NCBI GenBank assembly: GCA_002840275.1
Contig: PHAB01000025.1
Span: 1-34,651, forward strand
Direction of reading: 5' to 3'
Length of the DNA stretch: 34,651 nucleotides
Origin: Firmicutes bacterium HGW-Firmicutes-14
Lineage (GTDB): Bacteria > Bacillota > Thermincolia > Thermincolales > UBA2595
Positions 105 through 34,651 of the stretch are shown in pieces (positions within the stretch are counted from its first letter, which is position 1; each line of letters starts with the position of its first letter). The notes beneath the pieces are model-generated. The model saw only the letters and a program-made list of their open reading frames with translations. It was not told the DNA's origin and did not search any database. The position numbers were made by a program, and so were the translations under genes.

Positions 105-2012
105 TTAGTAGTTCTGGCAAAGCTCGGCTTCGAATTTTTCAGCAGTCTTCTGGTGGACACCGAGCTTCCATGTCCGGTACTCTAACGCACTGAGCATCTT
201 CTCAGCAGCTACTTTATGGTCAACTTCAAAAATGAAGTATCCGCCATATACGTCACTGGCAATCTGGGTTGCAATGCTGTAGAAGAGGTCGCTTCCTTCA
301 ACAGGCGGCAGTACGCCAACATGGACAGGCATACCAACAGTCACACACCAGCAACCGATAGCGACAGCCTTACCGGACATGGCTTCAGGAGCGGAGGCTA
401 CCCAAGGTACTTTCGGGGTATCTACACCCATTTCATTTGCCATATCCATCAACAGGTCGGAGGCACGGGTATTGTCAACACAGGATCCCATGTGGAATAC
501 TGCAGGAAGGTTTTCTTTGGCCTTGCCGTCAAACTGGGCCAGGAATGCCTTCAGGCCGTCACCGCAGAGGGAATCCCTGTTGGCCGGGTCAAGAATGCCT
601 AACTTGGCATAAGACTGGGCGGCACAACCGGTGGCCACTACAAACACGTCGTTCTTAAGCATTTCTTTAACAATACCGATATGGTTTTCGTCCTGAACAC
701 CTTTTAGGTTATTACAGCCTGCCATCAGGGCTACACCTTTAATCTGACCTGAAAGAATAGCATCTGTCAGCACCTTCACAGGCTTATCAGGATTTACAGT
801 TGCGAAAATATCATAACAACCTTATTCTTAACCTGGGGAACATAAACTCTTGAAGCATCCCGCTCTTTGTATGAAGCGATAGCCAGACGAACGATTTCCT
901 TGGCATCTTCCATAGCACTCTCTACACTAAAGGGTACGTGCATAGTACCGGGAAGCTTGGCAATCGGCTGGGTAGTTACAATCTTGGTGTGGAAGCACTT
1001 GGCGGCAGTGGTCAGACCGGGCATAATGCACTGGACATCAACGACCATGGCATCAATGGCACCGGTGGTGATAGCCAGTTCCTGGGAACTAAAGGAAGTG
1101 GCTATGGGAACGCCCTGACGCATAAGTACTTCGTTTCCTGTACAGCAAATACCGGACAGCTGGATTCCGGCTGCTCCGGCTTCTTTGGCTTCACCGTCGA
1201 GTTCGCGGGCAGCCGCTACAATCATCTCACTGAGCAGCGGGTTGTGGCCGTGAAGGATAATGTTAACTTTCTTCGGATCAATTACACCCATGTTGGCTTC
1301 AGAAACAACCGGTTCCGGTGTACCGAACAGAATGTCAGAGAAATCAGTACCAATATGCATACCGGTATAGTCAGCCATCGCGGCCCTGAGGGCGCTGAAG
1401 GTGATGTTTACAGGGTCATTGTCCTGCCCTACATGGGCCTGGGCCAGCAGGTCTGCCAGCGCTGACTGGATACCGTTAGGAGTGATATTGCAGACATCAA
1501 GTTTGGTTTTTCTGCCTTCAGTGATGGTGGAAGTACACCATACACACTCACCCATATCAGTAAGGATTTCGAAATCCTTGAGGGCCATCTTGGCAACTTC
1601 CTTGGCCAAATCTGTATCAGATTTGCCTTCGGTTTCAATTCCTACCCTCTTGGCAACCTTTTGCAGTTTCTTGGCATCTGTAACTTTATAATCAGGCGCT
1701 TTGCCTTCAGCCATTTCCAGAACGGTATGGGCCATATGACGGGCATGCTCACAGTGGGCGGCAGCTCCTGTCAACAGCATAGTGCCTGTACTCCTTGCGG
1801 CAATGGTCCATGCATCAGCGCCACAGATACCCTTGCTCTTAGGTCCGGTATCAGCGGTTACACGGCAGGGTCCCATCATACAAAACCGGCAGCAGGTACC
1901 CTTGTAACCGAACTGGCACTGAGGCTGTTGAGCGCTTAACATTCTTGGGTTCAAAAACTCTTGGTGCATCTGACGGTTTGCAGGTATGGTTTGGGTCTTT
2001 AAATCTTGGCAT
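105..2012 (-). pseudogene. acsA: CO dehydrogenase catalytic subunit AcsA/CooS, interrupted by two internal deletions with frameshifts
   Basis: In the family this enzyme reduces CO2 to CO (or the reverse) and passes CO to AcsB. The real start is ATG at 2012 after AGGAGG. It reads MPRFKDPNHTCKPSDAPRVF, matching the Moorella AcsA start, then loses frame after EPKN near 1940. Homology resumes in another frame at AQQPQC, with about 28 residues missing. Frame is lost again after KNKVV near 815 and resumes at IFATVNPDKP, with roughly 8 residues missing. The two long pieces read 1969-794 and 779-105, the latter ending YRTWKLGVH...CQNY. All recognisable metal ligands survive: the N-terminal CCRFCMMGPC and GICGA cysteines, HGHNP, GICCTGNE, DVQC, AGCNN, ATGCAAQ and MGSCVDN. 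A decayed gene, strain polymorphism or assembly error are all possible. Confidence 0.88.
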
Positions 2013-2146: not shown

Positions 2147-2914
2147 TTATTTATCCACCTCCCGCAATAATTTTTCATGAATTTCTTTCATGCTCCGCAA
2201 AAGCTCTCCTCCCAATTCTGCAGCTGGTCCGCTTTCCATGGAGCTTTCCCAGATCTCATCGTCAAAGGGAATGAATCCCAAGACCTCATCTTCGCCGAGA
2301 TATTTCAGGATAAAATCCCTCTCTTTTTCGTTTCGGATTTTGTTGCCGATAAACCTGATATTTTTTATACCCAGATCCATTGCCAGTTTTTTGACCAGAT
2401 TGGCTGTATTCACACTGTTCCTGCTGGGTTCAGCAACTACCAGCATAACATCGACACTTCTTGCGGTACCTCTTGTCAGGTGTTCTATTCCTGCACCCAT
2501 ATCCAAAATAACTGCACTGTCCCTGTCAAAAAGAAGTCCATTCATCAATGCATGCAGAAAGGAGTTTTCACGACAGTAACAAGCTGAGCCGCCCTGTTTG
2601 ATGCCGCCCATTCTCAGAAATTTTATATTACCCAAAGATATGCTATATTGTTCCAGCACATCATCAACATTGGGGTTCAAGGAAAAAAAAGCCCCTCCCC
2701 CGCTGCTTTTTTCGTCTATTAATTCTTTCATTTCCACCAGGGGTCTTAACTCCCCGATCTGTTCCTCAGGTATCCCCACCGCTGCCGCCAGGCATGCATC
2801 CGGGTCGGCATCAACTGCATAAACCTTCTTATGAGAATCGGCAAAAAGTTTTGCCAGGGTGGCAGCGACAGTGGTCTTGCCAACACCGCCCTTACCTGAT
2901 ACTGCAATTTTCAT
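2147..2914 (-). CDS. cooC: CO dehydrogenase nickel-insertion ATPase CooC
   Basis: A 255-residue MinD/SIMIBI-class P-loop ATPase. The deviant Walker A GKGGVGKTT lies at residues 7-15, followed by VYAVDADPDA at 31-40. A Cys-Tyr-Cys motif at residues 112-114 corresponds to the CxC metal site that CooC dimers use to hold nickel, and ILDMGAGIEH is the Walker B region. Family members load nickel into the C-cluster of CO dehydrogenase (CooC) or the A-cluster of AcsB (AcsF). Position directly upstream of acsA and transcription with it support this role. The start ATG at 2914 has GAGGTGAGG close upstream. Telling CooC from AcsF by sequence alone is uncertain; a CooC/AcsF-family maturase is secure. Confidence 0.9.
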   Translation of the reverse strand: MKIAVSGKGGVGKTTVAATLAKLFADSHKKVYAVDADPDACLAAAVGIPEEQIGELRPLVEMKELIDEKSSGGGAFFSLNPNVDDVLEQYSISLGNIKFLRMGGIKQGGSACYCRENSFLHALMNGLLFDRDSAVILDMGAGIEHLTRGTARSVDVMLVVAEPSRNSVNTANLVKKLAMDLGIKNIRFIGNKIRNEKERDFILKYLGEDEVLGFIPFDDEIWESSMESGPAAELGGELLRSMKEIHEKLLREVDK

Positions 2915-34454: not shown

Positions 34455-34526
34455 AGGTTAACCTCCCAGCACCCTTCGATCTGCCGTGGCCGCTGATGGC
34501 AGACCTCCGGATTCCGGGAGTGCTGG
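34455..34526. other. Structured palindromic element downstream of the rRNA operon
   Basis: A 12-base palindrome GAGGTTAACCTC (34455-34466) adjoins a three-way-junction-like fold: outer arms CCAGCAC (34466-34472) and GTGCTGG (34520-34526), inner stem TCTGCC (34480-34485) with GGCAGA (34498-34503), and a short CCGGATTCCGG stem (34507-34517). No gene or known RNA family recognised. Confidence 0.45.
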
Positions 34527-34536
34527 CCACAAATAC

Positions 34537-34564
34537 GAAAAACACCTGGTTTTCACCAGGTGTT
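34537..34564 (-). terminator. Terminator of the rRNA operon
   Basis: AACACCTGG (34541-34549) pairs with CCAGGTGTT (34556-34564); on the minus strand TTTTT follows, about 12 bases after the 5S rRNA end. Confidence 0.9.
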
Positions 34565-34576
34565 TTTCATATTAGA

Positions 34577-34651
34577 TCCGGCAACGACCTACTCTCCCGG
34601 GACCCTGCGGTCCAAGTACCATCAGCGCTGAGAGGCTTAACTTCCGTGTTC
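34577..34651 (-). rRNA. rrf: 5S ribosomal RNA, 3' part (runs off the window)
   Basis: The minus strand reads GAACACGGAAGTTAAGCC and on to GATGGTACTTGG and GGGAGAGTAGGTCGTTGCC, the conserved middle and 3' end of bacterial 5S rRNA. About 75 of about 117 bases are in the window; the 5' part and the rest of the rRNA operon lie to the right. The exact 3' end is uncertain by a few bases. Confidence 0.95.

Follow-up and report, generated by a model that had tools for sequence, protein, structure and literature searches.

Two frame breaks in an acsA gene of Firmicutes bacterium HGW-Firmicutes-14 very probably reflect short-read assembly of collapsed paralogues

Repeats at least as long as the overlap of a de Bruijn graph are inseparable in short-read assemblies (PMC9215042). 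The acsA locus described here resembles such repeat collapse in that contig ends carry a fixed overlap, in this case of 99 nt. Unlike the collapse described in PMC9215042, it also shows small silent deletions inside contigs and not just losses at contig ends. The locus lies in a window of 34,651 nt, which is the entire contig C66 of the 3.65-Mb draft genome (67 contigs) of Firmicutes bacterium HGW-Firmicutes-14. Compared with AcsA/CooS-type Ni-CODH proteins (TIGR01702/PF03063), it has the same family match on both sides of its breaks, the same metal ligands, and the gene order cooC–acsA–acsB.

The acsA gene, encoding the Ni-CODH subunit of CODH/ACS, was located at positions 105–2012 on the minus strand by open reading frames, alignment, and the TIGR01702 profile, and belongs to what is called operon a below. 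As assembled, it is not a single ORF but is covered by two minus-strand ORFs in different frames (794–1969 and 105–779), a state that we attribute to the assembly. Both pieces matched the AcsA family profile (TIGR01702/PF03063), and they covered consecutive parts of TIGR01702 (CO_DH_cata), namely profile positions 26–408 and 420–621. Their scores of 448 and 263 bits were each under the cut-off of 478 because of the bases absent from the assembled gene (79 and 25 nt). Apart from the two breaks, the pieces contain no further stops or frame breaks. The initial annotation had stated that every metal-cluster ligand was kept, and reading by eye agreed: together, the two ORFs contain the cysteines of the D/B-cluster (QCQFGYKGTCCRFCMMGPCRV...GICG) and, for the C-cluster, the His/Cys motifs HGHNP, GICC, VQC, AGC, TGC and GSC. 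These are known CODH motifs of the B-, C- and D-clusters. Linkage to the neighbouring genes was also as in the relatives, with the start of acsB at the contig end and a cooC-like ATPase gene upstream of acsA (2147–2914, minus strand), which marks operon a by synteny.

The acsA copies of related genomes were used to size the missing segments. Eleven copies from seven relatives were compared (one each from G001, G003 and G009, and two each from G002, G004, G007 and G008); G006 was left out of the frame comparison, as its contig contains N. All 11 copies had acsA in one continuous open frame. Against these, 79 nt were absent at junction 1 (1931|1932, minus strand) and 25 nt at junction 2 (816|817, minus strand). 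Since 3 divides neither 79 nor 25, each gap disrupts the reading frame. The frame crossings had been placed near 1940 and 815, with losses of about 28 and 8 residues, both close to what was measured. In the alignment, the N-terminal stretch corresponding to TSDPAALEMIDKAQEYGIITAFDRAVA of G008 was missing at junction 1, and VAGFSLEAL was missing at junction 2. Repeat-mediated deletion at AAGAAT, which had been noticed upstream of both junctions, was rejected. The hexamer does occur there, exactly twice in acsA, as conserved Lys-Asn coding sequence. In the alignment it was absent from the far end of both missing segments, where homology at the right ends was about 2 nt or less, and it therefore cannot have mediated a repeat deletion.

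A second acsA elsewhere in the genome had been proposed and was located on contig C4 (2237–4172), with 86% nucleotide identity to the acsA of the window. The two breaks recur at the same sites in this copy, which lacks 57 nt at junction 1 and 23 nt at junction 2. On the right-hand side, both gaps end at exactly the same base in the two copies; on the left-hand side, the boundary at break 1 differs between them. The remaining Prismane-family matches in the genome were two full-length CooS proteins (C39 and C21) and two hydroxylamine reductases (C37), so a further acsA besides those on C66 and C4 was rejected.

When exact matches of 30 nt or more were sought between C66 and C4, their lengths ranged from 33 to 99 nt, and no 100-mer is common to the two contigs. 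Exactly three matches reach 99 nt, all on the minus strand of the window. One starts at junction 1 (1833–1931, equal to C4 3968–4066), one starts at junction 2 (718–816, equal to C4 2851–2949), and one is the contig end itself (1–99), which overlaps the interior of C4 at 2134–2232 and runs into the start of acsB. Each break is thus followed directly downstream, in either copy, by 99 nt that match exactly between the copies. Among the 96 usable contig ends of the assembly (several contigs shorter than about 3 kb appeared as N), 34 pairs had common sequence, which was exactly 99 nt long in 27 pairs and 98 nt in 2 more. The de Bruijn graph of the assembler therefore left an overlap of 99 nt, and exact tracts of this length adjoin both breaks and the contig end. 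Tracts that the two copies have in common over more than 99 nt cannot stand twice, unresolved, in such an assembly, and the missing bases belong at the sites of such tracts.

The acsB gene occurs once in the assembly, at full length (C4 6–2204). C31 and C26 both end in the 99 nt with which C4 begins, and one acsB therefore feeds two downstream contexts. This single, collapsed acsB joins C66 and C4 on its upstream side to C26, which has acsC/D-type genes, and C31, which has DUF421-like genes, on its downstream side, and the acsB of the window continues on C4. In relatives, operon a has the order cooC–acsA–acsB–acsC/D, which matches C66/C26, and G004, G007 and G008 have a separate acsA–acsB without cooC, operon b, which matches C4/C31. 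By this synteny, the genome shows two acsAB operons that appear to be genuine. The rest of the operon is intact, with acsB and the acsC/D-type genes on C26. At the other end of the window, positions 34500–34651 resemble 5S rRNA and match the ends of C21 and C29 at 90%; the contig probably ends in a repeat on this side as well.

Most differences between the acsA of the window and those of the relatives fell at third codon positions, and this held on every side of the two breaks. Against G008, substitutions at codon positions 1, 2 and 3 were 0.075, 0.030 and 0.407 between the breaks and 0.051, 0.017 and 0.419 after break 2, a pattern that shows purifying selection on the codons beside the breaks, although such codon statistics are blind to a very recent real deletion in one acsA copy. 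Between the two operons of G004, G007 and G008, acsA was about 73% identical and acsB 88–90% (acsB pairs L033/L043, L034/L042 and L035/L044, respectively). Exact runs between the two acs loci reached 1043 nt in G004, and runs of 266 and 248 nt were found in G008. In the present genome, acsB was collapsed as identical and acsA was mosaic. These patterns fit gene conversion between the two acs operons. The assembler may have failed at the acs loci because gene conversion had made the tracts identical, which would be the biological reason for the failure.

We are therefore highly confident that the breaks in acsA are a short-read assembly artefact of two collapsed paralogues and not a real feature of the gene. 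The 99-nt signature, the common break sites, the collapsed acsB, and the intact genes of the relatives were observed directly. The organism would carry two acsA–acsB operons. Their acsA copies are mosaic, with an overall identity of 86% and tracts without any difference, and their acsB copies would agree at every base over about 2.2 kb. The assembler would have merged the copies into one repeat edge at every place where their identity extended beyond the graph overlap of 99 nt. We infer that at two sites inside acsA the assembler discarded part of this edge as it reconnected the unique flanks, which would have left one copy short of 79 and 25 nt and the other short of 57 and 23 nt. For acsB, only C4 would have kept the repeat, so that the contig of the window ends there. 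Most likely, the two acsA genes are uninterrupted and functional in the cell. An assembly artefact was among the options of the initial annotation, which had leaned away from it on the ground that two separate gaps argue against a single base-calling slip. That argument stands for a base-calling slip, and the leaning does not, as both gaps adjoin exact 99-nt tracts in both copies and fit de Bruijn-graph collapse.

One observation counts against an artefact, namely that the left-hand flanks at break 1 end at different points in the two copies. If the deletions were real, both acsA copies would be pseudogenes with two small deletions each, perhaps spread between them by gene conversion, and CODH/ACS would be lost or reduced. 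The gaps do stand in the deposited sequence of both copies, and these seem to exchange sequence, judging by their identical tracts. However, the tracts beside both breaks have exactly the length of the assembler overlap (99 nt) in both copies, and the loss sizes differ between the copies, yet one boundary is identical to the base. Moreover, the gene has no further stops or frame breaks and retains every ligand, and acsB and the acsC/D-type genes (C26) are intact. We regard real deletions as very improbable. It is just as hard to believe that the CODH half of CODH/ACS has been lost or changed in an organism that retains the acs operon along with two full-length cooS genes, and the recent loss of autotrophy considered earlier found no support.

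Two strains or species may instead have been binned together, so that C4 is foreign and the acsA alleles are tangled; the breaks would still be an artefact, of a mixed sample. The estimated contamination of 2.25% would allow this, mixed alleles give the same graph pattern, and in protein identity the C4 acsA is nearer to the a copies of the relatives, at about 85%, than to the b copies, at about 78%. However, G002, G004, G007 and G008 each have two acsA loci, and in G004, G007 and G008 the b locus has a context similar to that of C4/C31, which lacks cooC upstream and has DUF421-like genes downstream. Mixed strains are thus an unlikely source of the pattern, and a population variant, also proposed earlier, was not supported. 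Programmed recoding, by which a frameshift or bypass would rejoin the frames in translation, might be suspected from breaks at the same places in both copies and from selection that persists on either side of them. Yet residues found in all relatives are absent and not merely shifted, the acsA genes of the relatives need no recoding, and it is the 99-nt overlap that determines where the breaks lie, so that we give recoding almost no credence. A literature search for acsA frameshifts returned nothing relevant to this gene.

With the assembly artefact as the preferred reading, the breaks in acsA are mainly a caution: where a draft genome contains near-identical paralogues, apparent pseudogenes can result from silent losses in assembly, and these can be recognised because every break carries an exact common tract of the same fixed length. 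It would be wrong to annotate this organism as having lost the synthesis of acetyl-CoA from CO or CO2.

Elsewhere in the genome, imperfect palindromes of about 166 nt (with ends CGCCTAAC...GTTAGGCG) recur every 0.3–1.1 kb between unrelated small ORFs. They were found on contigs C55 (L129, over the whole contig), C50 and C62, at the start of C39, and at the end of C4 (L030, last 2.3 kb). The arrays look like an integron attC cassette array. No integron integrase (TIGR02249) passed in this genome, the best match scoring 144 bits against a cut-off of 265. With IntegronFinder 2.0, only one complete integron and a few attC cassette arrays were reported in Firmicutes (PMC9024848). The one palindrome copy that was tested folded strongly as single-stranded DNA (z = -7.1).
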